From IMG/VR virus record IMGVR_UViG_3300044846_003939, positions 1 through 27,938 of that record: a DNA stretch of 27,938 nt. One strand, 5' to 3'. Made by a program: the position numbers and the translations under genes. The notes under the pieces were generated by a model, which did no database searches, was not told the origin of the DNA, and saw only the letters and a program-made list of their open reading frames with translations. Origin of the DNA: a virus. Every line of letters begins with the position of its first letter. Within the stretch, counting starts at the first letter, position 1. Below are positions 1 to 27,938 of the stretch, in pieces.

Positions 1-152
1 GGATAATTGGTAAGAATTATGGAATATATCGGTCAAGCATTTTTAGCGGTCATTACAGGACTTATCACCTTTGTCTTGGGTAGAGAAAGGGGAAAAAAAG
101 AAAACGACAATCTACACTTAAAAAACCTTGAGGACTCAATTAACATCTATAA
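1..152. repeat. Terminal direct repeat, left copy (circular closure)
   Basis: Positions 1-152 are repeated at 27787-27938 with a single difference (C at 112, T at 27898). The repeat begins inside the last codons of the connector gene and runs into the following membrane-protein gene, so joining the ends restores both genes. This is what a circular or circularly permuted genome of about 27,786 bp gives on assembly. A true terminal redundancy is possible but not needed. Confidence 0.93.
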
Positions 153-318
153 ACAGATCATAGATGATTTAAGATTGGAAATAACGACTTTGGGAACGAG
201 GGTTAAGGATTTACAAACAAAGGTAGATGAACTGATGGTTGAGAACAAAAAACTAAAAGATTTAATGATGGATCACGATGCCAATACCAAAACCAGAACA
301 AGGAGAAAAACAGTATAA
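19..318 (+). CDS. Small membrane-anchored coiled-coil protein (holin- or spanin-like topology)
   Basis: This is a 99-residue protein. Residues 3-21 (YIGQAFLAVITGLITFVLG) form one hydrophobic N-terminal segment. It is followed by a charged heptad-rich region (about residues 28-85, with many Lys, Glu, Leu and Ile) typical of a coiled coil, and a basic tail (TKTRTRRKTV). ATG at 19 is chosen because it lies 5 bases after the connector stop (11-13 here, 27797-27799 in the other copy); an upstream TTG at 7 would overlap that stop. A single N-terminal anchor plus coiled coil resembles inner-membrane spanins and some small holins, but no family was recognised. Its place as the second-last gene of the late operon fits a lysis or virion-assembly role. 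The function is unproven. Confidence 0.75.
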   Translation: MEYIGQAFLAVITGLITFVLGRERGKKENDNLHLKNLEDSINIYKQIIDDLRLEITTLGTRVKDLQTKVDELMVENKKLKDLMMDHDANTKTRTRRKTV

Positions 319-418
319 GTATGTGTCTCGCTGTTTGGAGGTCACCACAAAAGAATTCCCCCGTGCTCAAGCCATCGCAATTTGTCTTGGAAACTGGAGA
401 AACAGGAACAAATCTTAA
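278..418 (+). CDS. 46-residue stand-alone head-protein module
   Basis: A short reading frame starts at ATG 278 inside the preceding gene (41-bp overlap, different frame) and ends at TAA 416-418. The product begins MPIPKPEQGEKQYKYVSRCL and ends with an EFPR-QAIAIC-W pattern followed by basic residues. A PxPxxGExxxxFxxRC ... EFPxxxxxxAIC...W signature is familiar as a small module fused to phage portal, prohead-protease or minor head proteins. Here it stands alone at the end of the late operon. The match to that pattern, more than its length, supports a real gene. Its stop shares the palindrome TTAA (415-418) with the stop of the opposing gene. Probably head-associated, exact role unknown. Confidence 0.68.
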   Translation: MPIPKPEQGEKQYKYVSRCLEVTTKEFPRAQAIAICLGNWRNRNKS

Positions 419-696
419 GGGTTAAACTCCTTACCATACTTTTCTTTCATACGAACCAAAAATTGACTATAGACGGAGTTTTCCTCAAGGTTGGATAGAT
501 CGTATCCCCAATTGGTTAAAATCTCGTTAGAGTGGATCTTTTGGATATATACGGTCAAAGCAGACCCTTTATATCCTTGACTCAAACACTCTTTACAGGT
601 CATCGTGTATGGTTGTTTGATACTCGTTCGTTTTGTGTATTCTGTTAGGGGTTTTTTGACTCCACATACAGGACAAATTTTTTCTGTAGTTTCCAT
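415..696 (-). CDS. Zinc-ribbon protein, only minus-strand gene
   Basis: The 93-residue product begins METTEKICPVCGVKKPL and has two Cys pairs, CPVC (residues 8-11) and CKEC about 25 residues later, with a KPLTEYTKR stretch between them. This C-x2-C ... C-x2-C layout with a 'KPL-E-Y' core is the zinc-ribbon found at the N terminus of many phage HNH nucleases and as stand-alone small proteins. No HNH residues follow, so a nuclease call is not supported. ATG at 696 is preferred to a TTG two codons upstream (702). The gene is convergent with the late operon, and late transcripts that reach the terminator at 818-849 would cross it in antisense. A 12-bp palindrome (704-715) lies just upstream of its start. 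Confidence 0.75.
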   Translation of the reverse strand: METTEKICPVCGVKKPLTEYTKRTSIKQPYTMTCKECLSQGYKGSALTVYIQKIHSNEILTNWGYDLSNLEENSVYSQFLVRMKEKYGKEFNP

Positions 697-703
697 ACAC
701 AAT

Positions 704-715
704 AACTATATAGTT
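704..715. promoter_or_regulatory. Perfect 12-bp palindrome upstream of the minus-strand gene
   Basis: AACTATATAGTT is self-complementary and lies 8 bp upstream of the ATG at 696 on the minus strand. This is a plausible place for an operator, but AT-rich palindromes of this size also arise by chance. No clear TAnnTTTG promoter was found for this gene. Confidence 0.25.
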
Positions 716-817
716 TTTATATTTAGTTGTGAAGGGGAGTGGGTGTTATTTTTTTTTTACAAGCGTCCAAACTAACTTATTTTTTCACCCATAGCCCCTT
801 TTTTAGTTTTTAGAGAG

Positions 818-849
818 ATCAGGATTAGAAATAGTCCTGATTTTTTTTT
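818..849 (+). terminator. Rho-independent terminator, + strand (end of late transcription)
   Basis: ATCAGGA (818-824) pairs perfectly with TCCTGAT (835-841) around a 10-base loop, followed by T at 841-849. The T run lies only on the + side, so it stops + transcription. It is the first terminator seen after the late operon crosses the circle junction. Late messages ending here would include the antisense of the 415-696 gene. Confidence 0.8.
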
Positions 850-857
850 ATACCCAA

Positions 858-889
858 TTTGACTTTTCCCAAAATCATACTATTTATTG
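858..889 (+). promoter_or_regulatory. Promoter upstream of the structured non-coding region
   Basis: TTTG at 858-861 and TATTTATT at 881-888 are separated by 19 bp, close to the Bacteroidota -33/-7 layout. The upstream part TTGACTTTTCC (859-869), one base, then AAAA is shared with the promoter at 5510-5541, as is TATTTAT. The first open reading frame downstream starts 360 bases later, so the primary product is probably an untranslated RNA. Confidence 0.6.
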
Positions 890-892
890 ATA

Positions 893-1135
893 AGTCAGTT
901 GGGACGCTGGTTCATTAAACGGCACCTGGCAACTGATTAGATAAATGATCTACCAGGGGGACAACCAAAGATCAAACCGAGAACAAAGAGAGAACGGTGG
1001 TTAAGGACTGATAGGGGTTCGTAAGTTGCTCTCAAGGTATAACACCTAATCTTGTTATACTCTGGCTCAATCAAGGGGCTTAAGGGTTCTAACCTGTGTA
1101 ACAACAGGACTAGACTAACCCTGACTAATCAAGGG
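893..1135 (+). ncRNA. Candidate structured non-coding RNA
   Basis: I see no convincing reading frame between 697 and 1251; apart from the terminator and promoter noted, this is what that 555-base stretch holds. From 893 on, several helices can be drawn by eye: 894-901 with 930-937 (one G-U); 925-929 with 953-957; 938-942 with 948-952; 963-966 with 999-1002 and 976-979 with 995-998; 1037-1044 with 1053-1060 (8 perfect pairs); 1083-1088 with 1117-1122 enclosing 1093-1097 with 1104-1108. The first two cross, giving a possible pseudoknot. No tRNA, hammerhead or group I core was recognised. No T-run terminator closes it before the AT-rich stretch. A regulatory RNA or a replication-primer RNA are both possible. 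Confidence 0.5.
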
Positions 1136-1251
1136 ATTATATTAGAGTATCTAGTTAAGTATTAAGTAGTTAAATAAATTTACTATATGAATTTGATTAT
1201 ATGGATATTCATTAGTATATTTTAACTATAAATCTAAAAACTAAATTTATT
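1136..1251. other. AT-rich intergenic stretch
   Basis: About 115 bases are overwhelmingly A and T (for example ATTATATTAGAG, TTAAATAAATTTACTATATG) and hold no gene. The promoter of the 1252 gene lies at its right end. Lying just after a structured RNA in a genome without recognisable replication genes, it is a candidate DNA-unwinding region of an origin. That is inference: no iterons or DnaA boxes were identified. Confidence 0.3.
1192..1223 (+). promoter_or_regulatory. Promoter of the 1252 gene
   Basis: TTTG (1192-1195), a 20-bp spacer and TATATTTT (1216-1223) match the Bacteroidota TTTG / TAnnTTTG arrangement with one mismatch in the -7 box. The ATG follows 28 bases later after an A-rich leader. 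Confidence 0.55.
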
Positions 1252-1512
1252 ATGGACGCAAAAAGATCACAAAATCAAAATAGACAAATTATTACTCAAT
1301 CACAACTTAAATTTGTTATGGATTGGGGATCATTAAACAATAAGAAACTAACACTTAAGGAAATTGTTGCTATTACAAATGTAATGGTAGATTATGTAGA
1401 GCACGGGTATAGTAAAGAAATAGGTGAAAGATTAGAAAAAATTGAGGATCACCTAAACAATAAAGTATATCCAATCAAGGATAGTGTAAGTTTTAATATC
1501 AAGGGGGAATAA
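1252..1512 (+). CDS. Hypothetical small early protein
   Basis: The 86-residue protein starts MDAKRSQNQNRQIITQSQL. It is predicted mostly helical, with a hydrophobic stretch LTLKEIVAITNVMVDYV near residues 44-58 and a charged C-terminal half (KEIGERLEKIEDHLNNK). No family was recognised. The DNA is more AT-rich than its neighbours. It has its own promoter (1192-1223), and its last codons form the left arm of a terminator (1501-1527), so it is probably expressed as a single-gene unit. Position and size suggest an early function, perhaps a regulator or inhibitor of a host process, but nothing in the sequence identifies one. Confidence 0.7.
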   Translation: MDAKRSQNQNRQIITQSQLKFVMDWGSLNNKKLTLKEIVAITNVMVDYVEHGYSKEIGERLEKIEDHLNNKVYPIKDSVSFNIKGE

Positions 1513-1527
1513 CACCCCCTTTTTTTT
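1501..1527 (+). terminator. Terminator overlapping the 1252 gene's stop and abutting the next start
   Basis: AAGGGGG (1501-1507) pairs perfectly with CCCCCTT (1515-1521) around a 7-base loop that contains the TAA stop (1510-1512). T runs from 1520 to 1527, and the next gene's ATG is at 1528. With no promoter visible between them, the 1528 gene depends on read-through, so this may act as an attenuator. Confidence 0.85.
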
Positions 1528-1755
1528 ATGAAAATAGTTAAACTAACTGAATACCAAAAGGAGGATTTGGGAATACTGATCCAAGAGATTACCCCTGAAG
1601 CCAGGGCTGATCTATTTTCCAAGTTCATTAACGGGTGTGTGTATGAAAGATCCATAAAGGTCTATAGGTATTGGCTATGGGCGTCACCTGATCTTACGGA
1701 TCTACGGGACTACTATTACTATGCGATGATAAAACAGGAAAAAGATTTGTTGTAG
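1528..1755 (+). CDS. Hypothetical small early protein
   Basis: A 75-residue protein beginning MKIVKLTEYQKEDLGILIQE. It is rich in aromatic residues in its second half (VYRYWLWAS, DYYYYAM), which suggests a compact helical protein that packs against a partner. No family was recognised. Its ATG directly follows the T run of the terminator at 1501-1527 and there is no leader, so expression should be low or controlled by read-through. A promoter for the next gene starts right after its stop. Confidence 0.6.
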   Translation: MKIVKLTEYQKEDLGILIQEITPEARADLFSKFINGCVYERSIKVYRYWLWASPDLTDLRDYYYYAMIKQEKDLL

Positions 1756-1757
1756 GT

Positions 1758-1789
1758 ATTGTGGGATTAGAAATCCTGTTGTATCTTTG
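1758..1789 (+). promoter_or_regulatory. Promoter of the 1811 gene
   Basis: A perfect TAnnTTTG box (TATCTTTG, 1782-1789) lies 20 bp after ATTG (1758-1761). Transcription should begin about 20 bases before the ATG at 1811; the leader contains TCCCGTTA (1801-1808), a 7/8 match to the shared early leader. Confidence 0.65.
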
Positions 1790-1810
1790 TCCTGTTAAAA
1801 TCCCGTTAAG

Positions 1811-2074
1811 ATGAAAAACTACCAAACATTAGAGGAGTTAGAGAAGGAGTATATCCCTAACACCAACAACATATCCACCAACGCTGACTGGATCGGTGTT
1901 AGTTGGTATTACTACAAATGGACGAAGGTTCGTGGTATTCAGGTTACACCGATGGTTGATGTATCCAACTTTTCCTACTACCTACGATTTGATCCTGGTT
2001 CAGTAGAGGAATACAAGATCTACGATGAGATCTGTGAGGAATACGGAAATCCTGATTGGATACGGTTGTCCTAA
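1811..2074 (+). CDS. Hypothetical small early protein
   Basis: An 87-residue acidic protein, MKNYQTLEELEKEYIPNT at the start and NPDWIRLS at the end. It is rich in Tyr and Trp (WIGVSWYYYKW; FSYYLRFDPGS). No family was recognised. It has its own promoter (1758-1789). Its stop (TAA, 2072-2074) is followed immediately by the next promoter's -33 box at 2075-2078, so each gene here appears to be a separate transcription unit. Confidence 0.68.
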   Translation: MKNYQTLEELEKEYIPNTNNISTNADWIGVSWYYYKWTKVRGIQVTPMVDVSNFSYYLRFDPGSVEEYKIYDEICEEYGNPDWIRLS

Positions 2075-2105
2075 TTTGCCATATCCAAAATCTTTCTTAT
2101 ATTTG
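2075..2105 (+). promoter_or_regulatory. Promoter of the 2110 gene
   Basis: TTTG (2075-2078), a 19-bp spacer containing TCCAAAA, and a perfect TATATTTG (2098-2105). The ATG at 2110 is only 4 bases after the -7 box, so the transcript would be leaderless or nearly so if that ATG is used. Confidence 0.7.
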
Positions 2106-2109
2106 TGGT

Positions 2110-2637
2110 ATGATAAAGTTGATGAGAACCCCTACGAGCGATGAATATGGACTTATGGTGCCCACCATATTTGAGGGCTTAAGGAGCCTAAAGAAAATAA
2201 CCGAACCTAGAAAGGGTAGGAGTAAGTTAAAAGAGTTTGTTGGACGAGGGATCAGGTATTATACCGAGATGAAGGCTCCAAAACTATACTCAACCGAAGC
2301 CCTGAACTTTTGTTTGGATCGTGGTATTGATCTACGGACATTACCTTTAAGGAACTATTCCAAAATAGTTGGGGGTGATAAGAACCGACCCAATTTAGTT
2401 TTGGAACATACATACCCGATAGGAGCGTTTATTGAGGATATATTACGAATACCAGAGGATAGATGGAGTTACAAAATGGTAATGTCTCACTCCATTTGTT
2501 TCATAACCCGTGAGGAGGACGACAAACTCAACGAGAAGGGGTATAAGAGTAAAAGACCTGGTAGTTGGATGCGGTGTTACAAGGAGTGTGGTATTGATTA
2601 CCACTTTTTTACCGAGTTGGACTCCGTTTATCTTTGA
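2110..2637 (+). CDS. Hypothetical protein with an EHTYPI / ITREEDDKLN pattern
   Basis: This is a 175-residue basic protein starting MIKLMRTPTSDEYGLMV. The central LVLEHTYPIGAFIEDIL and the later SICFITREEDDKLN are spaced like the 'EH-P ... I-T-EE--KL' core of some small phage and restriction-associated HNH-like proteins, but a full HNH motif is not visible and no function is assigned. A longer frame opens at 2056, inside the previous gene, but the promoter at 2075-2105 rules that start out. ATG 2110 gives an almost leaderless message, and ATG 2122 (MRTPTSDEYG) is the alternative. It ends VYL-stop; those codons spell TATCTTTGA, a second -7-like box (2629-2636). Confidence 0.72.
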   Translation: MIKLMRTPTSDEYGLMVPTIFEGLRSLKKITEPRKGRSKLKEFVGRGIRYYTEMKAPKLYSTEALNFCLDRGIDLRTLPLRNYSKIVGGDKNRPNLVLEHTYPIGAFIEDILRIPEDRWSYKMVMSHSICFITREEDDKLNEKGYKSKRPGSWMRCYKECGIDYHFFTELDSVYL

Positions 2638-2648
2638 TCAAAAAAAAA

Positions 2649-2680
2649 TTTGGCAGTTCCAAAAATCCTTTTTACCTTTG
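2649..2680 (+). promoter_or_regulatory. Promoter of the 2709 gene
   Basis: TTTG (2649-2652), a 20-bp spacer beginning GCAGTTCCAAAA, and a perfect TACCTTTG (2673-2680). The spacer start matches the promoters at 2976 and 3746. Confidence 0.72.
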
Positions 2681-2708
2681 TTGTCTAATCTAAAAACTAA
2701 AACCTGTT

Positions 2709-2975
2709 ATGACTCAAGAACAACTTGATCTACTTTCCCAACTTAATACTTGGGACTTACTTAACTATATCCGTGAAGACCGAGAAATCGTGATCTTTGG
2801 TGATGTAATGACCCGTGAGGATATTGGGGGTTACTTGGAGGTGGAATTCACCGATGAAAAGTGGGAAACCTTCCAATTCCTTTGTTTTAACAAACTTTCT
2901 AATGAGTGTCACACCGAGGCTTGTCTCTGGGTGGTTAAAGATATGTTGGACGATAAGTTTGACGAGGAGGAATAA
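2709..2975 (+). CDS. Hypothetical acidic early protein
   Basis: An 88-residue, strongly acidic protein (MTQEQLDLLSQLNTWDLLNY at the start, DMLDDKFDEEE at the end). It contains two Cys (FLCFNK, TEACLW). The acidity and size resemble phage proteins that mimic DNA or bind host proteins, but no family was recognised and this is only a resemblance. Its leader reads ACCTGTTATG, a one-base (G-U compatible) variant of the shared early leader. The next promoter begins right at its stop codon. Confidence 0.68.
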   Translation: MTQEQLDLLSQLNTWDLLNYIREDREIVIFGDVMTREDIGGYLEVEFTDEKWETFQFLCFNKLSNECHTEACLWVVKDMLDDKFDEEE

Positions 2976-3007
2976 TTTGTTAGTTCCAAAATCCCGCCGT
3001 AAGTTTG
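2976..3007 (+). promoter_or_regulatory. Promoter of the 3029-3311 pair
   Basis: TTTG (2976-2979), a 20-bp spacer beginning TTAGTTCCAAAA, and a perfect TAAGTTTG (3000-3007). The first 16 bases are the same as in the promoter at 3746. Confidence 0.75.
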
Positions 3008-3028
3008 TAGTGTTAAAAAAAACCCGTT

Positions 3029-3289
3029 ATGAAAAAGACCACTTACTTTGTCCCTGATGTCCGTGATGCCTTCATCACCAACCTACCAAAAGGAGCCGTT
3101 GTTAAAGTCCTGATGAAAGGTCGGGACACCTACAACGAGATCCATTTTACCACCAAGCGTCAAGCCCGAGAATACCTCCGCTGGTTACAGGGTGATCCAA
3201 AGCACCCGATCCACAAGGTCAAGTTAGAACTTGCACAGATGCGAGGTGAGTGGGTCGTAACCGATGTGATCCAAGATTATTCTTTCTAA
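3029..3289 (+). CDS. Hypothetical basic early protein
   Basis: An 86-residue basic protein, MKKTTYFVPDVRDAFITNLP at the start and VTDVIQDYSF at the end. The middle, FTTKRQAREYLRWLQGD, is a likely surface helix rich in Arg. No family was recognised. The start is fixed by the shared leader ACCCGTTATG (3022-3031), 22 bases after a strong promoter. The following gene has the same leader but no promoter of its own in the 21-base gap, so the two are probably co-transcribed. Confidence 0.7.
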   Translation: MKKTTYFVPDVRDAFITNLPKGAVVKVLMKGRDTYNEIHFTTKRQAREYLRWLQGDPKHPIHKVKLELAQMRGEWVVTDVIQDYSF

Positions 3290-3310
3290 TCCTTAAACTA
3301 AAAACCCGTT

Positions 3311-3778
3311 ATGAAAAAGTTTAACAAGTATGGAGCCGACCACCTTAACCCGATGAGTAAGCCGTGGGGAAATCGTGTAATGGTTAAACGAGAAATCAGG
3401 GATCATCTTTCCAAAGTGTTCTTACAGGACAAGAATAAGGGTTTAGATCCTATGTATTACTATCACCATCAAGCAGATCAAGTTATGGCGATGGACGCCT
3501 TCTATCAAATGACCTCACAAGTTCAGGCATTTCGTCAAAATGGAGTGTATCTACGGGATCATATTGTCCTGACTAATCAAGGGTGGTGTGGGTATGATAA
3601 GGTAAATCTACTTATCTACTCAAATGATTTAGACCAAGAACACATTAGTTCTGGTTTTGATCCTCTGGCATTCGGGTTTGACTATATGGTCGGTAGAAAC
3701 GACCTGATCTATGTGAAACTTGGCGAACTAAATTCTTTTGAGAGATTTGTTAGTTCCAAAAAACCGCAGTATCTTTGA
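3311..3778 (+). CDS. Hypothetical early protein
   Basis: A 155-residue protein, MKKFNKYGADHLNPMSKPWG at the start. It has a His/Tyr-rich stretch (MYYYHHQADQV, near residues 48-58) and a C-terminal half of mixed strand and helix character (IYSNDLDQEHISSGFDPLAFGFDYMVG). No family was recognised. The leader is ACCCGTTATG (3304-3313). Its last 11 codons carry the promoter of the next gene: the -7 box TATCTTTG (3770-3777) overlaps the TGA stop (3776-3778). An internal 16-mer (3568-3583) is identical to the end of the non-coding RNA at 1120-1135. Confidence 0.72.
   Translation: MKKFNKYGADHLNPMSKPWGNRVMVKREIRDHLSKVFLQDKNKGLDPMYYYHHQADQVMAMDAFYQMTSQVQAFRQNGVYLRDHIVLTNQGWCGYDKVNLLIYSNDLDQEHISSGFDPLAFGFDYMVGRNDLIYVKLGELNSFERFVSSKKPQYL
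3746..3777 (+). promoter_or_regulatory. Promoter of the envelope-protein cassette, inside the upstream gene
   Basis: TTTG (3746-3749), a 20-bp spacer beginning TTAGTTCCAAAA, and a perfect TATCTTTG (3770-3777). It lies wholly within the 3' end of the 3311 gene and drives the 3802 and 4265 genes. Confidence 0.75.
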
Positions 3779-3801
3779 CTCACTAATCTAAAAAACCCGT
3801 T

Positions 3802-4251
3802 ATGAAAACCCTGTTATTATCTTTGTCCCTTGTCGTAGGATCAACCCTTATGGGTCAAGAGATCCAAAGTTTCACGAGTAAAACCATTTGGGCTCAACCC
3901 CAAATAGGCTCCCCAATAAAGAGTTTGGAGGTCTCTAGTGGTGGTGTGGTTGTATTTCTATACCGAGACCAACAATACACCTATGTTGATGATTATGGGT
4001 CGTTCTCGTTCAGTAATCTAACCGAGGCTGAAACATTTTTCCTCAAGATCAAGGAACTCTTTAATCAACCCTACACGAAGGGGGACTATGTGTTTTTCCA
4101 AACCGATCAAGTAAGAGTAAGTCGTGTCCCGTCTATGTTGGGTATTAAGGTCAGTCGTGTATCACAGGGTAGTAAATACACCTACCTTGAGGAATACATC
4201 GTCAATAGGATCATTACCAATATCCAAGAGATCAAGAACCAACAATCCTAA
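3802..4251 (+). CDS. Secreted protein with N-terminal signal peptide
   Basis: The 149-residue product starts MKTLLLSLSLVVGSTLMGQE, a classical signal peptide. Cleavage is likely after LMG (residue 18), the usual flavobacterial form ending just before Gln. The mature part (about 131 residues) has alternating hydrophobic strands (VVVFLYRDQQYTYVDDYGSF) and no Cys, and would act in the periplasm or outside the cell. No family was recognised. It has the shared leader ACCCGTTATG and its own promoter, and a lipoprotein gene follows 13 bases later. A phage gene encoding an exported soluble protein suggests envelope modification, superinfection exclusion or a lysis role. Confidence 0.72.
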   Translation: MKTLLLSLSLVVGSTLMGQEIQSFTSKTIWAQPQIGSPIKSLEVSSGGVVVFLYRDQQYTYVDDYGSFSFSNLTEAETFFLKIKELFNQPYTKGDYVFFQTDQVRVSRVPSMLGIKVSRVSQGSKYTYLEEYIVNRIITNIQEIKNQQS

Positions 4252-4264
4252 TACCTTAACTGAA

Positions 4265-4600
4265 ATGCCTACACACCTTTCTATCACCCTCACAGTCCTT
4301 TTCATTATCCTAATGTCCTCGTGCCAGTCACGAATGGATAAACTCCAAGAAAGTCACGACGAGTTAGACAAAGAGTGGTATTCCTTATGGGAACAACTGG
4401 ATCAAAACGACAGTATCAGGGAACACTATGTAGAAACTATGGAGGCTAAAAATCCAAAGTTTATGAGTTTGACTGATCCAACATATCAGGAACTATACAA
4501 TAAGTCCGTAACACTCTTAACGATGATTGATCGTAACCAAAAGAAACGAACTGAAATCGTAGAACTGATGAAAGATATTGAGTTGGGTTTGGTGGAATAG
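4265..4600 (+). CDS. Lipoprotein (111 residues)
   Basis: The start MPTHLSITLTVLFIILMSSC is a lipoprotein signal: a hydrophobic core and a lipobox-like LMSSC with the lipidated Cys at residue 20. The mature part is charged and helical (MDKLQESHDELDKEWYSLWE; KKRTEIVELMKDIELGLVE), compatible with a coiled coil. ATG 4265 is chosen because it gives a complete signal; the longer frame opening at 4124 runs through the upstream gene. A lipoprotein with a helical body could be an outer-membrane spanin or an exclusion lipoprotein, and neither is proven. It is probably co-transcribed with 3802. Its last codons contain the -33 box of the next promoter. Confidence 0.7.
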   Translation: MPTHLSITLTVLFIILMSSCQSRMDKLQESHDELDKEWYSLWEQLDQNDSIREHYVETMEAKNPKFMSLTDPTYQELYNKSVTLLTMIDRNQKKRTEIVELMKDIELGLVE

Positions 4601-4619
4601 ATATTCCGCCTTACCTTTA
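4588..4619 (+). promoter_or_regulatory. Promoter of the 4644 gene
   Basis: TTTG (4588-4591), a 20-bp spacer and TACCTTTA (4612-4619), one mismatch to TAnnTTTG. It overlaps the 3' end of the lipoprotein gene and lacks the TTCCAAAA spacer motif of the others. Confidence 0.55.
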
Positions 4620-4643
4620 CCTCAACAAATAAAAAAACCCGTT

Positions 4644-5381
4644 ATGAAAAACCTGTTATTACCCCTTGTGCTACTAGTTGGCTCCTTAAGCACCCAAGCA
4701 CAAACCATTTTTACTGAACTCAATATTCGTGGTGAGTCAATCGGTATAGAGTTGATGAATAGGAAAAATCAGGGTGTCTATTTCACCGTAGGGAGCAACC
4801 TGATCCTAAAGTCCCTAAAACTGCCAGAGATTACAAGCGAGGTGACGATTGATGATTTTTACTCAAGTGTAAGTTGGTATGGTGAGAACGGAGCATATCT
4901 ACCATCACTACCACCAGAACTGATCTTTACTAGTCCTGAATGGGGTAATGTCTTGATAGAAAGTGGATATTATGTTTCCACTTTTGAGATGACTACCTAT
5001 TGGAAATACTATCATCACGACTGGTTCGCAGTTGGGGGGATTATCCCTGTAGGTAAAGACAGGATCAGGATAGGTGTTGGTCTATGGACTAAAATAATCA
5101 CAGGGGAACAGGATTACCGATTTATGGAACAAAGAGGTAATGTGTCTAAATATTGGGATAGTTGGGAGGTAATAGGAAACGACCAAAACCTATTCGTAGT
5201 GGAATATACCCCAAGATTTAAGGACATACAGGTAACAACACCGATCTACGATAAGATCACCCGTCTTAACATAAATGCCTCCTATGTGTTTAGGTTATGG
5301 GGTGACTCACGAGATCCCAAAGATTTAAGTATTGGTATAAACGCCAATACCATAACTGTAGGACTACATTATCCCCTTTAA
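4644..5381 (+). CDS. Probable outer-membrane beta-barrel protein
   Basis: This 245-residue protein has a signal peptide (MKNLLLPLVLLVGSLSTQAQ; likely cleavage after QA, residue 19). The mature part has many alternating polar/aromatic strands (GVYFTVGSNLIL; RIRIGVGLWTKII; RLNINASYVFRLWG; SIGINANTITVGLHYPL), as expected for a small barrel of 8-10 strands in the outer membrane. The last strand ends in Leu rather than Phe. No named family was recognised. The start is fixed by the leader ACCCGTTATG (4637-4646); the longer frame from 4578 lacks a signal. It follows a secreted protein and a lipoprotein, making a three-gene envelope cassette. It may block or replace a receptor (superinfection exclusion), which is inference. 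Confidence 0.72.
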   Translation: MKNLLLPLVLLVGSLSTQAQTIFTELNIRGESIGIELMNRKNQGVYFTVGSNLILKSLKLPEITSEVTIDDFYSSVSWYGENGAYLPSLPPELIFTSPEWGNVLIESGYYVSTFEMTTYWKYYHHDWFAVGGIIPVGKDRIRIGVGLWTKIITGEQDYRFMEQRGNVSKYWDSWEVIGNDQNLFVVEYTPRFKDIQVTTPIYDKITRLNINASYVFRLWGDSRDPKDLSIGINANTITVGLHYPL

Positions 5382-5410
5382 GAGTCAAAATCCGTTTTAC
5401 CTTTTTTCTA

Positions 5411-5485
5411 AAAAAATCCTTTGATTAGTTTGTAACGGGTCTAATCAAGGGTAAATGACCTCACCAGAGATGGTGGGGTTTTTTT
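5411..5485 (+). ncRNA. Candidate small RNA with anti-leader hairpin
   Basis: Between the 4644 gene and the late promoter lies an 11-bp stem, CCTTTGATTAG (5418-5428) with CTAATCAAGGG (5441-5451), with one G-U pair. Its 12-base loop is TTTGTAACGGGT (5429-5440), and an intrinsic terminator follows at 5458-5485. The loop is complementary over all 12 bases (10 Watson-Crick, 2 G-U) to ACCCGTTATGAA, the leader and start codon of the genes at 3029, 3311, 3802 and 4644. The transcript could start from a weak promoter (TACCTTTT, 5398-5405) or be processed from the 4644 message. The structure is seen directly; the RNA and its function are inferred. Confidence 0.55.
5458..5485 (+). terminator. Rho-independent terminator ending the early region
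   Basis: ACCTCACC (5458-5465) pairs with GGTGGGGT (5472-5479), with one G-U, around a 6-base loop, followed by T to 5485. It separates the early genes from the late promoter. Confidence 0.85.
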
Positions 5486-5509
5486 ATTATGTTAAGTTCC
5501 ACCTCCAAG

Positions 5510-5541
5510 ATTGACTTTTCCTAAAAATGGTAATATTTATG
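5510..5541 (+). promoter_or_regulatory. Promoter of the late operon
   Basis: ATTG (5510-5513), a 20-bp spacer and TATTTATG (5534-5541). TTGACTTTTCC, one base, AAAA and TATTTAT are shared with the promoter at 858-889. It lies just after the early terminator and 17 bases before the first late start codon. Confidence 0.62.
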
Positions 5542-5557
5542 TAGTAAAGGGGAATTT

Positions 5558-6061
5558 GTGCGGACAACTAAAGAGTGGTTGGAACATAACTATAATGACT
5601 TAAGAGATATGGTATTAAAGATCATTAAGGACGACCAAAACATAGATGATTTTTACCACCATATTTTAGAGGACATATTGGTTAAACAATCCAAGATGGA
5701 TACTTTACCTGATAATGAAAAAAAATATTATTTCATCAGGATCGTAAAAAATCAGTATTACTCTAAAACGAGTCCATATTATTACCGATACAAAAAATCA
5801 CAGATCAAACGAGAGGATTTGGATACAAACCTAAACGAGATCCCTGATGATGTATCCCCCACTTTACCTGATATGGATTGGGTTAAAAATGAACTCAAAA
5901 ATCTTGACTGGTATGAACGGGAATTGTTCCTCTTATATATGGAGTTGGGAACGATGACGAAAGTGTCTAAAAAGACAACTATACCCCTTAATACGGTGTC
6001 TCGTCAGGTAGGGAACATAAAACAACATTTAAGAACAAGGTGGTATGCCCAAATTGGATAA
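5558..6061 (+). CDS. Sigma-70-like transcription factor
   Basis: The 167-residue protein has a C-terminal segment (about residues 108-160, WVKNELKNLDWYERELFLLY ... TKVSKKTTIPLNTVSRQVGNIKQHLR) that reads as sigma region 4: a helix, then a helix-turn-helix that would contact the -33 box. The N-terminal half (DDQNIDDFYHHILEDIL; YYFIRIVKNQYYS) resembles a reduced region 2 of ECF-type sigma factors. It starts with GTG at 5558, the only initiator close to the promoter at 5510-5541; the next ATG (5609) would remove part of region 2. As the first late gene it could redirect host RNA polymerase to late genes. Small sigma-like proteins of this kind are common beside terminase genes in Bacteroidota phages, and some may act in packaging rather than transcription. 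Confidence 0.72.
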   Translation: MRTTKEWLEHNYNDLRDMVLKIIKDDQNIDDFYHHILEDILVKQSKMDTLPDNEKKYYFIRIVKNQYYSKTSPYYYRYKKSQIKREDLDTNLNEIPDDVSPTLPDMDWVKNELKNLDWYERELFLLYMELGTMTKVSKKTTIPLNTVSRQVGNIKQHLRTRWYAQIG

Positions 6062-6281
6062 ACAAAAGGTCAAAATGATAAAGACCCTTTTACTTACAGG
6101 TGCGGTCACTCATAAAGAACTCGCAGAGTTAATGGGGGTCACACGAAGCACAATAACACGGATCGCCACGGGTCAAAGGTGGGGTGATGTTGTTGTTGAT
6201 AAACCCGAAAAAGTTAAACGATTAATTTATTTGGAATATGAGCCAGACGAAGATTGGTTTTTGCGAAACCTGTTCCAATAA
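6045..6281 (+). CDS. Helix-turn-helix DNA-binding protein
   Basis: A 78-residue protein with a clear HTH at about residues 17-45: TLLLTGAVTHKELAELMGV followed by TRSTITRIATGQRWGDV. The pattern 'LL-G-----ELA---GV--STI--I--G--W' is that of small phage HTH proteins beside the terminase genes. The start overlaps the sigma-like gene by 17 bp in another frame, so the two are translationally linked. It probably binds phage DNA, either at a promoter or at the packaging site. Its neighbourhood (sigma-like, TerS, ribbon-helix-helix) makes either role plausible. Confidence 0.75.
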   Translation: MPKLDKQKVKMIKTLLLTGAVTHKELAELMGVTRSTITRIATGQRWGDVVVDKPEKVKRLIYLEYEPDEDWFLRNLFQ

Positions 6282-6300
6282 ACCAGAGATCACATTAGGT

Positions 6301-6504
6301 ATGGAAAATTTTACATTAGAGGAACTTAAAAAGGCTTACGATAGGTCTAATCAGTCCCGATACACAAACGAGGAGCAGGCGTGGTTCTATAACCTCTATA
6401 ACAGGGTATTTAACACCACAAGAGAACCTGGCTGTGGTAAGTGCTTTGCGACGGTAAGAAAACAACTCGTAGCGAGGTATAAAAACTTGGCAGGATTAGA
6501 ATAA
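6301..6504 (+). CDS. Small CGKC-motif protein
   Basis: A 67-residue protein, MENFTLEELKKAYDRSNQSR at the start, with a helical N-terminal part and GCGKCFATVRKQLVARYKNL near the C terminus. The CxxC pair could bind metal or form a disulfide. ATG 6301 follows the upstream stop by 19 bases; a start at 6238 would overlap the HTH gene by 44 bp and adds a poorly folded segment, so it is disfavoured. Small proteins with a '-GCGKC/S----' C-terminal motif occur next to terminases in Bacteroidota phages, with function unknown to me. The stop overlaps the TerS start by one base. Confidence 0.62.
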   Translation: MENFTLEELKKAYDRSNQSRYTNEEQAWFYNLYNRVFNTTREPGCGKCFATVRKQLVARYKNLAGLE

Positions 6505-6905
6505 TGGAACGAAGGAAAGATGTGGATATATTCCACCATTATCAAACTGATATTCCAAAGATTTTGGACGAACATTTGTCGTTCAGGGAGTATGCGGAAT
6601 ATTGTAGAAAACAACACAAATTATCACAGAGGGTGTGTTCTCAAAACTGGCAGGGTATGTGGGAAATAATCCGTGAGAAATTTGTGTTGGAAAAAGACAA
6701 ACTCGTTTCTAAACACCTAAATCGTTATTGGGATCTATACGACCGAGCAATCACCCAAAGGGATCTAACCAACGCTCGTCAGGCTCTTAACGACATCGCA
6801 AAATTACAGGGTCTTTATGAACCCGATAAACTAGAGGTTAAACAGGACACCATCATAGAGTTTAAGTTTGGTGGTGACGATACGGATACGACAGATGAAG
6901 TATAA
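6504..6905 (+). CDS. terS: Terminase small subunit (putative)
   Basis: The 133-residue protein precedes the large subunit, separated only by a 56-residue gene. Its N-terminal half is helical (KILDEHLSFREYAEYCRKQH), consistent with the DNA-binding part. The middle (LYDRAITQRDLTNARQALND) forms the central oligomerisation helices, and the acidic C-terminal tail (DTIIEFKFGGDDTDTTDEV) would contact the large subunit. The stretch ARQALNDIAKLQGLYEPDKL is typical of small terminase subunits. It would recognise phage DNA and start packaging. The assignment rests on position, size and this pattern. Confidence 0.72.
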   Translation: MERRKDVDIFHHYQTDIPKILDEHLSFREYAEYCRKQHKLSQRVCSQNWQGMWEIIREKFVLEKDKLVSKHLNRYWDLYDRAITQRDLTNARQALNDIAKLQGLYEPDKLEVKQDTIIEFKFGGDDTDTTDEV

Positions 6906-7065
6906 ACAGACCCAAAATGGTAAGGAATATGTGTATGAATACAAAATGGTATTCCTTAAACCCGACACACATAAAAGGTTATTAAAATACAAACGATATA
7001 ACCATAAATCTATCAACGATATTGTAAGTCAGTTGATAAGTTTTTACGAGGATCAACATAAATGA
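6895..7065 (+). CDS. Ribbon-helix-helix-like protein, 56 residues
   Basis: The protein starts MKYKQTQNGKEYVYEYKMVF. It contains a strand-like MVFLKPDTHKRLLKYKRY followed by HKSINDIVSQLISFYEDQHK, matching the 'V-L-PDTH--L---K-----SINDIV--LI--Y' pattern of small ribbon-helix-helix proteins, which bind DNA as dimers. ATG 6895 overlaps the TerS end by 11 bp; a GTG at 6868 would lengthen the overlap without adding recognisable sequence. Its stop TGA overlaps the terminase ATG (ATGA). It may regulate the late operon or assist packaging. Confidence 0.62.
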   Translation: MKYKQTQNGKEYVYEYKMVFLKPDTHKRLLKYKRYNHKSINDIVSQLISFYEDQHK

Positions 7066-8288
7066 TTGTAAAAGGATTTACCCCCCATAAACATCAAAAA
7101 AAGGTCATCAAGGAAATAGAAAATCCTGATGTAAAATATGTGGTTTTAACAACGGGTCGTCAGTATGGTAAAACCATATTGGCGCAGAACCTTTTGTTAA
7201 AATGGGGCTTAACGAACCCTAAAAGCGTATTGATGTGGGTAAGTCCTGTATATAGTCAAAGTAGAAAAGTGTTTCAGGATCTAATAAAGGCAATCCAACA
7301 CACGGATCTATTGGAGGAAATAAATAAAACCAACCTAACAATCAAATTCATCAACGGTAGTGTGATCCATTTTAAGAGTGCTGAAAGGGCTGACTCACTA
7401 CGAGGTATGACCCTAAACTATTTGATTATTGATGAGGCGGCATTTATCAAAGATAATGTATGGAATTTGGTATTAAAACCTACGATTTTGGTGAAAGGTA
7501 AAAAGGTATTATTCATATCAACCCCCAAAGGAAAAAACTACCTGTATGGACTAGCGATGAGGGGGCTTGACGATGACCAGAAACAATACAAATGGATCAA
7601 GGGGACTAGTTACGATACACCCTATATTTCACCACAGGAGTTGGACGAGGCGAGAAACACCTTACCAGAGGAAATCTACAAACAGGAAATAATGGGTGAG
7701 TTTATAGATAGTGGGGGTGAGGTCTTTAAGCACCTTGATAAGTTCTGTGTATTGACTCATTTTACCCCCAAGATACAAGGGATCAAATATTATGCGGGGG
7801 TGGATTTCGGTAGGCAGAACGACTACACGGCTCTAACGATTTTTGACGATAAGGGAAATGTCGTTTATGCGTGGAGGGAACGACAGAAGCCGTGGAAAGA
7901 GATTTTGGATCATCTAGTAATCAAACTAAAAGAATACGAGGCACAGGTTCAGGTGGAGGTAAATAGTATCGGTGATGTCTTATACGAGGAGTTGGAAAAG
8001 AAATGGAATAAAGTAGAACCATTTATCACCACCAACACAAGTAAAAGTGAAATCATAGAGGAGTTGATCTATGGGTTAAACGAGGGGGAAATCAAACTAC
8101 CGACCAAAGAGGTTTATGCCCCCCTGTATAACGAAATGGGTTCATATTCGTATGAATATTCACTAAAGACACGAAAGGTCAAATACGGAGCAATTGAGGG
8201 GGCACACGATGATACGGTTATGTCCCTGGCGATTGCCTACAACACATTTAAGAAAAGAAAATCCAAAGGGACTTATTATGTCTATTAG
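7062..8288 (+). CDS. terL: Terminase large subunit
   Basis: This 408-residue packaging motor and nuclease has all expected parts. The Walker A motif is GRQYGKT (residues 32-38), Walker B is YLIIDEA (120-126), and the coupling motif is FISTP (151-155). The RNase H-like nuclease domain starts at AGVDFGRQNDYTAL (245-258, Asp248), continues with VEVNSIGDV (298-306, Glu299), and ends with AHDDTVMSLA (381-390, Asp383/Asp384). It pumps DNA into the prohead through the portal and cuts the concatemer. The length is somewhat short for the family but no motif is missing. It overlaps the RHH gene by 4 bp. The portal gene is unusually far away, about 18 kb downstream. Confidence 0.95.
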   Translation: MIVKGFTPHKHQKKVIKEIENPDVKYVVLTTGRQYGKTILAQNLLLKWGLTNPKSVLMWVSPVYSQSRKVFQDLIKAIQHTDLLEEINKTNLTIKFINGSVIHFKSAERADSLRGMTLNYLIIDEAAFIKDNVWNLVLKPTILVKGKKVLFISTPKGKNYLYGLAMRGLDDDQKQYKWIKGTSYDTPYISPQELDEARNTLPEEIYKQEIMGEFIDSGGEVFKHLDKFCVLTHFTPKIQGIKYYAGVDFGRQNDYTALTIFDDKGNVVYAWRERQKPWKEILDHLVIKLKEYEAQVQVEVNSIGDVLYEELEKKWNKVEPFITTNTSKSEIIEELIYGLNEGEIKLPTKEVYAPLYNEMGSYSYEYSLKTRKVKYGAIEGAHDDTVMSLAIAYNTFKKRKSKGTYYVY

Positions 8289-8325
8289 GATAAAATAAAA
8301 ACTATTAAAAATGATATTTTAGATT

Positions 8326-9024
8326 ATGGAGAAAACCATTATAGAATACGGTGGGGTGGATTATGAAATCACCGAACCAACTATACACCTTTGGAACAAA
8401 TTGGCTCTGCTTAAAGATTTGGAAACAAACGAGGAATTCGCAATCACCCTGATTAGTTTGACTACGGGGTTAGATCGTGAGGAAATTAATAAGGCTGATT
8501 GGTTCAGTATCGTTCAGGCGAGCGAGGCGTTAAGTGAATTCCTACTAAACCAAGCCAACAAGTTCCATTATGAGTTTGAATTCCAAGATCAAAAATATCG
8601 GTTCATAGACCTTAATAATCTAACCTTTGGGGAGTTTATAGATATTGATGAGTTCTTACGCCAGACCCCCTTAAAAAAACAAACTGAACTACATTTTTTG
8701 ATGGCTCTGTTGTATCGTGAGGTTGATGAAAACGGAAACCTTACACCATACGATGCCTCCAAGTTAGAGGACAGGGCAAACAAGTTTAAATTTCTATCAA
8801 TCAAATACCTCAACGGTGCTCTGGTTTTTTTTTCAATTTTAGAAACCATATTGTTAAAAAATACCCCCTTGTCTTTGGTGAGGAAGGTGAAGTGGAAAAT
8901 GAAAAAGATAGTCAAAACAATTTCACAACATTTTGGAGGTGGTATTCGGCAATCTATTTTCTGGCTGGAGGGGATATACTTAAATTTAACAAGGTTGGTG
9001 AAACGCCCCTTACGCAAGCACTAA
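8326..9024 (+). CDS. Tail-assembly-chaperone-like protein, zero-frame form
   Basis: Without frameshifting, translation continues to TAA at 9024 and gives 232 residues. The first 179 are shared with the long form. The last 53 (from [18 protein letters not shown] on) are basic and lack the composition of the rest, which suggests they are tolerated or are an artefact rather than a selected domain. In known G/GT systems the short form is the abundant product and has no special C-terminal extension. Confidence 0.5.
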   Translation: MEKTIIEYGGVDYEITEPTIHLWNKLALLKDLETNEEFAITLISLTTGLDREEINKADWFSIVQASEALSEFLLNQANKFHYEFEFQDQKYRFIDLNNLTFGEFIDIDEFLRQTPLKKQTELHFLMALLYREVDENGNLTPYDASKLEDRANKFKFLSIKYLNGALVFFSILETILLKNTPLSLVRKVKWKMKKIVKTISQHFGGGIRQSIFWLEGIYLNLTRLVKRPLRKH

Positions 9025-27211: not shown

Positions 27212-27799
27212 ATGGGTGTTTTATTAGTTAGTTCAGCCAAAATTAAAGCCTTCAGTCAGTTAAACGAGGGGGTTGATGACGCCCTGCTTCTTGCTGGCGT
27301 CCAAATCAGTCAGGATATAGGTTTGCAGACCCTTTTGGGGACGAAATTTTACAATCATATTTTATCAGCCGCATCAGGTAATACCCTATCCAACCAAGAG
27401 AACATTTTGGTTCAGGAATATATCCAACCTTATCTTATTTGGAGAGGGGTTTGGGAAAGTATGGGAACGATGTATTATCGTATGATGAATAAGAGTATTA
27501 TTGTTGGTAATACAGAACAGGGAAACGCCACGGATAAAAGTGGATTTATTTACCTACGGAATATCCACAAAGATAGGTATGAGTTCTATGCGCAGCGTTT
27601 AATGGATTATATCCAATACAGACCTGGTGATTTTCCTGATTACTTTTCCAACTCAACTTTGGACGGTATGTTCCCAAGTAAAGAAAACTATTTTTCAGGA
27701 ATTCATATTGGACCAGGCAGTCCTCGTAGATTACCTGTTCCTGGTATTAAAGGTTGGGCTGATCCAACTGGTCCAAGTTGTTGTGTGGATAATTGGTAA
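27212..27799 (+). CDS. Head-tail connector (adaptor) protein
   Basis: A 195-residue protein directly after the portal. Its helical core (VDDALLLAGVQISQDIGLQT ... LLGTKFYNHILSA ... NILVQEYIQPYLIWRGVWES ... IHKDRYEFYAQRLMDYIQYR) matches the 'Q----LG--LY--L ... I-PYL-W------ ... Y---L--YL' pattern of adaptor proteins in Bacteroidota phages. The C-terminal 50 residues are Gly/Pro-rich (HIGPGSPRRLPVPGIKGWAD) and extended, and probably reach onto neighbouring subunits or the tail. The stop lies in the terminal repeat (27797-27799, equal to 11-13). Confidence 0.68.
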   Translation: MGVLLVSSAKIKAFSQLNEGVDDALLLAGVQISQDIGLQTLLGTKFYNHILSAASGNTLSNQENILVQEYIQPYLIWRGVWESMGTMYYRMMNKSIIVGNTEQGNATDKSGFIYLRNIHKDRYEFYAQRLMDYIQYRPGDFPDYFSNSTLDGMFPSKENYFSGIHIGPGSPRRLPVPGIKGWADPTGPSCCVDNW

Positions 27800-27938
27800 G
27801 AATTATGGAATATATCGGTCAAGCATTTTTAGCGGTCATTACAGGACTTATCACCTTTGTCTTGGGTAGAGAAAGGGGAAAAAAAGAAAACGACAATTTA
27901 CACTTAAAAAACCTTGAGGACTCAATTAACATCTATAA
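27787..27938. repeat. Terminal direct repeat, right copy
   Basis: Identical to 1-152 except T at 27898 where 112 has C. The change is the first base of a Leu codon (TTA for CTA), so it is silent. A silent variant between copies fits real strain variation better than random error. Confidence 0.93.
27805..27938 (+). CDS. Partial second copy of the membrane-anchored coiled-coil gene
   Basis: This is the first 44 codons of the gene at 19-318, cut by the end of the window. It is the same gene seen twice because of the terminal overlap, not a paralogue. It shows the true context of that gene: five bases after the connector stop. Confidence 0.9.
   Translation, partial: MEYIGQAFLAVITGLITFVLGRERGKKENDNLHLKNLEDSINIY

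Follow-up and report, generated by a model that had tools for sequence, protein, structure and literature searches.

Antisense RNAs that phages direct against their own genes usually have one target and are encoded opposite to it. The sar RNA of phage P22 is organized in two stem-loops, the second of which serves as terminator, and its single target, which overlaps sar itself, is bound at the ribosome-binding site. In the antisense RNA of IS10, RNA-OUT, a hairpin loop begins pairing with the 5' end of the mRNA and the translation start is covered; RNA-OUT is encoded opposite its single target, with which it shares extended complementarity. To our knowledge, the small-RNA biology of the Bacteroidota has barely been explored. 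P22 sar, a phage-encoded RNA of 68/69 nt, pairs with the phage ant mRNA and inhibits the synthesis of its product, and VpdS of phage VP882 as well as PreS of lambda are phage-encoded RNAs that act in trans and depend on Hfq, with the host gene dnaN being the target of PreS (PMC12197685). Among Bacteroides, in which no evident Hfq or ProQ is known, GibS of Bacteroides thetaiotaomicron represses by pairing across start codons, with more than one mRNA as target (PMC7366714).

The locus described here belongs to a viral contig 27,938 bases long, which is referred to as the window. Since its end (27787-27938) repeats its start (1-151), the genome is probably complete and circular or circularly permuted, with a size of about 27.8 kb. 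Besides a large terminase and a sigma-like protein, numerous small proteins of unknown kind are encoded. The early genes are preceded by promoters of the Bacteroidota type (TTTG-N19/20-TAnnTTTG), from which we infer that the host is a Bacteroidota bacterium. In a collection of isolated phages, the contig had no match at the DNA level, and the sigma-like gene, gene 21930 and gene 3311 had none at the protein level; the sigma-like gene was not found in bacterial genomes. Searches with the terminase and the sigma-like protein provided about 140 contigs as relatives, none of them close.

Hairpin and terminator downstream of the last early gene

The element under study is located in the 3' UTR of gene 4644, the last of the early genes. 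The following features of this part of the window are relevant:

5398..5405, plus strand, weak -7 box of early type, TACCTTTT, preceding the hairpin (direct repeat D5; alignment)
5411..5485, plus strand, candidate small RNA of about 75 nt with putative ends (fold z -5.45)
5418..5451, plus strand, stem-loop with 11 pairs (5418-5428 with 5441-5451), 10 of them Watson-Crick and one G-U
5429..5440, plus strand, 12-nt loop TTTGTAACGGGT, complementary to early leaders
5457..5486, plus strand, intrinsic terminator (stem 5457-5480 with 10 pairs, five of them G-C; 4-nt loop; T run)
5511..5541, plus strand, promoter-like element of the TATATTTAT type ahead of the sigma-like gene, recurring there in relatives
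5558-6061, sigma-like protein gene (PHROG 1740, E 6e-7)
6045-6281, small gene with HTH-like sequence
7062-8288, large terminase gene

Stem, loop and terminator were all located where the original prediction had placed them, and their fold was far better than that of shuffled sequences. The 79-nt unit of hairpin and terminator reached -29.1 kcal/mol (z -5.45 against shuffles), while the hairpin by itself had a z of -4.69. Four weak pairs within the loop are added in the predicted optimum, and an open 12-nt loop costs just 0.8 kcal/mol. The terminator stem at 5457-5480 headed the list in a terminator scan. When positions 1-9000 were compared with Rfam (cmscan, E up to 1), the element matched no family, and a tRNA scan returned nothing of relevance.

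Elsewhere in the window, a noncoding stretch of nearly 400 nt (860-1250) opens with the element TTTGACTTTTCCCAAAATCATACTATTTATTG, which is similar to the element TTGACTTTTCCTAAAAATGGTAATATTTATG upstream of the sigma gene. The structure predicted for its part 893-1165, which contains CTAATCAAGGG as does the hairpin in its 3' arm, is ordinary (z -1.29).

Complementarity of the loop to early-gene leaders

All 12 bases of the loop pair with ACCCGTTATGAA (10 Watson-Crick and two G-U pairs), and the complementarity to leader and start codon that had been claimed for four genes is exact, ACCCGTTATGAA being present without change at each of the first four sites below. The candidate targets and their pairing with the loop are:

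3022..3033, plus strand, leader and start codon of gene 3029 (12/12 pairs, -14.9 kcal/mol)
3304..3315, plus strand, leader and start codon of gene 3311 (12/12 pairs, -14.9 kcal/mol)
3795..3806, plus strand, leader and start codon of gene 3802 (12/12 pairs, -14.9 kcal/mol)
4637..4648, plus strand, leader and start codon of gene 4644 (12/12 pairs, -14.9 kcal/mol)
2702..2712, plus strand, leader and start codon of gene 2709, ACCTGTTATGA (11 pairs, -11.7 kcal/mol)
1802..1808, plus strand, CCCGTTA within the gene 1811 leader, TCCCGTTAAGATG, as a possible target (7 pairs, -10.3 kcal/mol)

The G-U-compatible match at gene 2709 is real but spans 11 bases, not the eight originally given, and gene 1811 with its seven-base core match CCCGTTA was added here as a sixth candidate.

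A search of both strands revealed the loop as the sole other 12/12 match, the leaders' own complements aside. Such matches are expected 0.05 times per genome by order-1 Markov simulation and 0.10 times analytically, and about 0.0015 times inside a hairpin loop, calculated over about 170 hairpin loops with stems of at least 9 pairs. Shuffled loops, the control suggested along with the original prediction, equaled the observed pairing in just 0.05% of cases (0.0005). Prediction of the interaction across 38 gene starts, likewise suggested at the outset, ranked six early genes as the best six by pairing energy (3029, 3311, 3802, 4644, 2709 and 1811; -14.9 to -10.3 kcal/mol), with a clear gap to the seventh-ranked start at -6.4 kcal/mol. 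Loop-pairing sites of -12 to -10 kcal/mol are present within coding regions as well, so that specificity for gene starts rests mainly on the four perfect sites. Structure and complementarity are both real, and chance is a very unlikely source of them; complementarity beyond chance to several target starts is what is expected of a trans-acting antisense RNA. Two loop bases deviate from the exact reverse complement, and in both cases pairing is kept via G-U. The 12 pairs cannot all coexist in an intact 12-nt loop and would require partial opening of the stem or a shorter kissing complex; loop contacts of this type lie outside what co-folding of RNA and leader can represent.

The likeness of the leaders to each other is due to repeated promoter-leader cassettes, of which they are copies (direct repeats D1 and D3; alignment), while gene 3311 has the leader and no clear promoter box or cassette of its own. 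All six targets carry G or C at -6, compared to one of the 26 other genes (p 8e-6, a value that is partly circular as the targets were picked by motif). Initiation in Flavobacterium johnsoniae profits from A at -3 and -6, and pairing or structure near the start codon is accompanied by lower translation (PMC6847099). The retention in six genes of a leader that is costly for translation, with G or C at -6, suggests that another constraint acts on this leader.

Corresponding regions in related contigs

Many of the closer relatives exhibit a stem-loop directly before a terminator and the TATATTTAT element, upstream of the sigma gene, and in four of them (L009, L019, L099 and L011) a similar box is also found ahead of the hairpin. 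The stems and loops of the relatives are wholly unlike those of the window, and the nearest contig containing the region (L007, terminase 78%) has the terminator but no such stem-loop. In several relatives, homologs of the window gene at 1252-1512 are found a short distance ahead of the sigma-like gene, and the gene order of the window thus differs from theirs.

Covariation was assessed by pairing the loops of each contig with its own leaders; shuffled loops and the leaders of other contigs served as controls. Among 27 hairpin-terminator loops from this and related contigs, the window ranked first in the comparison of own with foreign leaders (p 0.0025); L100 and L127 had p values of 0.0075 each and L011 was marginal at 0.05. 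Own-leader pairing was not significant for L010, L011 (shuffle test), L019, L025, L098, L104, L108 and others, and for L020 it was at most borderline (p 0.043 with shuffles and 0.33 with foreign leaders). The mild surplus of low p values in a test of 49 UTRs (seven below 0.05) could be accounted for by shared base composition. At the distances of the available relatives, the nearest with the region having a terminase identity of 78%, covariation of loop and target was not seen. The same leader was present in other contigs as single chance copies only, and searching the relatives with the reverse complement of their own shared leader did not reveal a second hairpin of this kind.

Some individual matches in relatives were considered and rejected. 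The nominal match in L100 involves a weak stem and is located partly within another predicted stem. AGGTC plus TTGGTTTT against AACAAGACCTATGAAAACCAA in L020 is convincing by eye and failed the foreign-leader control, while the long apparent match in L140 (-23 kcal/mol by stacking) consists of a GTT repeat whose order is wrong for the shared leader of that contig.

The recurrence of stem-loop and terminator upstream of the sigma gene with unrelated stems and loops, most of the latter lacking a match to their own leaders, is consistent with a hairpin that merely stabilizes the 3' UTR of gene 4644 ahead of the terminator, the loop match being coincidental. Yet a 12/12 match coinciding exactly with the loop is expected only about 0.0015 times, and we consider this explanation unlikely, if the best of the alternatives.

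Several other patterns were observed among the related contigs. A loop motif near CTCCCATTAT on differing stems is found near terminators in L009 (185), L019, L099 (542), L011 (2094), L131 (4658), L137 (228), L071 (929), L044 (2592), L098 (3653), L139 and L147 (minus strand), and several of these stem-loops are preceded by a TATATTTA-type box. The complement of this loop resembles ATGGGA(G) gene starts in L011 (2718) and L098 (8465), both homologs of window gene 6045, as well as in L137 (4436), with none of the single matches being significant. The early-gene 3' UTR of L100 (4641-4722) has TGTGTCATAGT just ahead of the terminator, which is complementary to three early-gene starts (ACTATGACAC, ACTATGACA and ACTATGA). 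In the distant L162 (terminase 34%), positions 4615-7228 contain a run of small genes, each with one promoter-leader cassette (TTCGTATATTCACGTATAAT ... AAAAGTTATG); one of these genes starts with MKKFNKYG, as does window gene 3311, and has a similar leader.

Proposed origin and action of the RNA, and known systems

Upstream of the hairpin, CAAAATCCGTTTTACCTTTT is similar to the promoter of gene 2709 in the alignment, and the box TACCTTTT is the best, though weak, candidate for a promoter of the hairpin RNA itself. With a matrix derived from six early promoters it ranked 18th of 27,753 plus-strand positions, with a score of 5.6 compared to 12-31 for the early promoters (leave-one-out), and 27 minus-strand positions scored equally. 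The RNA may originate from this early-type promoter or, equally, constitute the 3' portion of the mRNA of gene 4644, since the hairpin begins 36 nt after the stop codon of that gene.

The element had been proposed to act as an early-to-late switch from a position ahead of the late promoter. A TATATTTAT-type element does recur upstream of the sigma-like gene in relatives, its late identity being presumed, whereas the timing of the switch was not supported: the weak promoter evidence is early-like and the element belongs to the 3' UTR of gene 4644, before the terminator, which argues for an RNA made together with the early genes. With such expression, delayed feedback would fit better than a late-expressed switch.

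The nearness of the hairpin to the stop codon of gene 4644 would also suit action in cis, in which the loop pairs with the leader at the 5' end of its own mRNA and the other matches reflect the copied promoter-leader cassette, as the D1 and D3 copies might indicate. However, the same loop would be free to act on the identical leaders of other mRNAs, and gene 3311 retains its leader without a clear promoter cassette, and we regard cis action as clearly improbable. Least probable is a role of ACCCGTTA as a DNA or RNA binding site for a phage or host protein, with copies in the early leaders, an inverted copy ahead of the sigma gene and an incidental hairpin, for although this 8-mer is repeated in the leaders and inverted at 5433-5440 and the gene at 6045-6281 has HTH-like sequence, exact copies also occur within genes on the minus strand (1629, 11434 and 15611), the pairing runs on through the start codon, the two deviating bases keep RNA pairing yet would break a DNA repeat, and the inverted copy falls exactly in the hairpin loop.

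Our preferred reading, to which we assign a probability of about 0.55, is an antisense RNA of about 75 nt that acts in trans, is made with the early genes and blocks translation of up to six of them. Of the original proposal, this retains an RNA that blocks several early genes, antisense action being the best explanation of the improbable match, extends it to six genes and abandons the switch. What follows on transcription, intracellular pairing, repression and timing is inferred. Produced alongside the early genes, be it from the weak early-type promoter ahead of it or as the last, terminated part of the gene-4644 transcript, the RNA would expose UUUGUAACGGGU in the loop of its hairpin. First contact would probably be made between UAACGGG of the loop and CCCGUUA of the leader, and the pairing would then cover leader and start codon of the early genes and prevent ribosome loading. 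As the RNA accumulates, it would turn down genes 1811, 2709, 3029, 3311, 3802 and 4644 jointly, as a delayed negative feedback on the early region.

More tentatively, the early genes might form an RNA regulon, in which six genes retain the costly leader with CCCGTT ahead of ATG as docking site for one loop and a single small RNA stops the early programme; relatives might share this layout with different loops, including the recurrent CTCCCATTAT loop. If this is true, one loop for the leader of six genes would represent a compact control of the whole early programme.

By analogy, the element may work like P22 sar or GibS, a resemblance that does not amount to demonstrated membership in any family. 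Like VpdS and PreS, the candidate would be phage-encoded and act in trans, while those RNAs depend on Hfq and PreS targets the host gene dnaN. IS10 RNA-OUT also uses a hairpin loop as the start of pairing and covers a translation start, but does so opposite its single target and with extended complementarity. Like P22 sar, the candidate would be a phage-encoded RNA with phage mRNA as target; however, sar overlaps its target, whereas 5418-5451 is located 0.8-3.6 kb from its candidate targets, up to six in number, on the same strand. GibS is encoded on the host chromosome and has its seed in a long single-stranded 5' part, while the matching segment of the candidate is a hairpin loop; in both cases an RNA of the Bacteroidota would pair with the start codons of multiple mRNAs.
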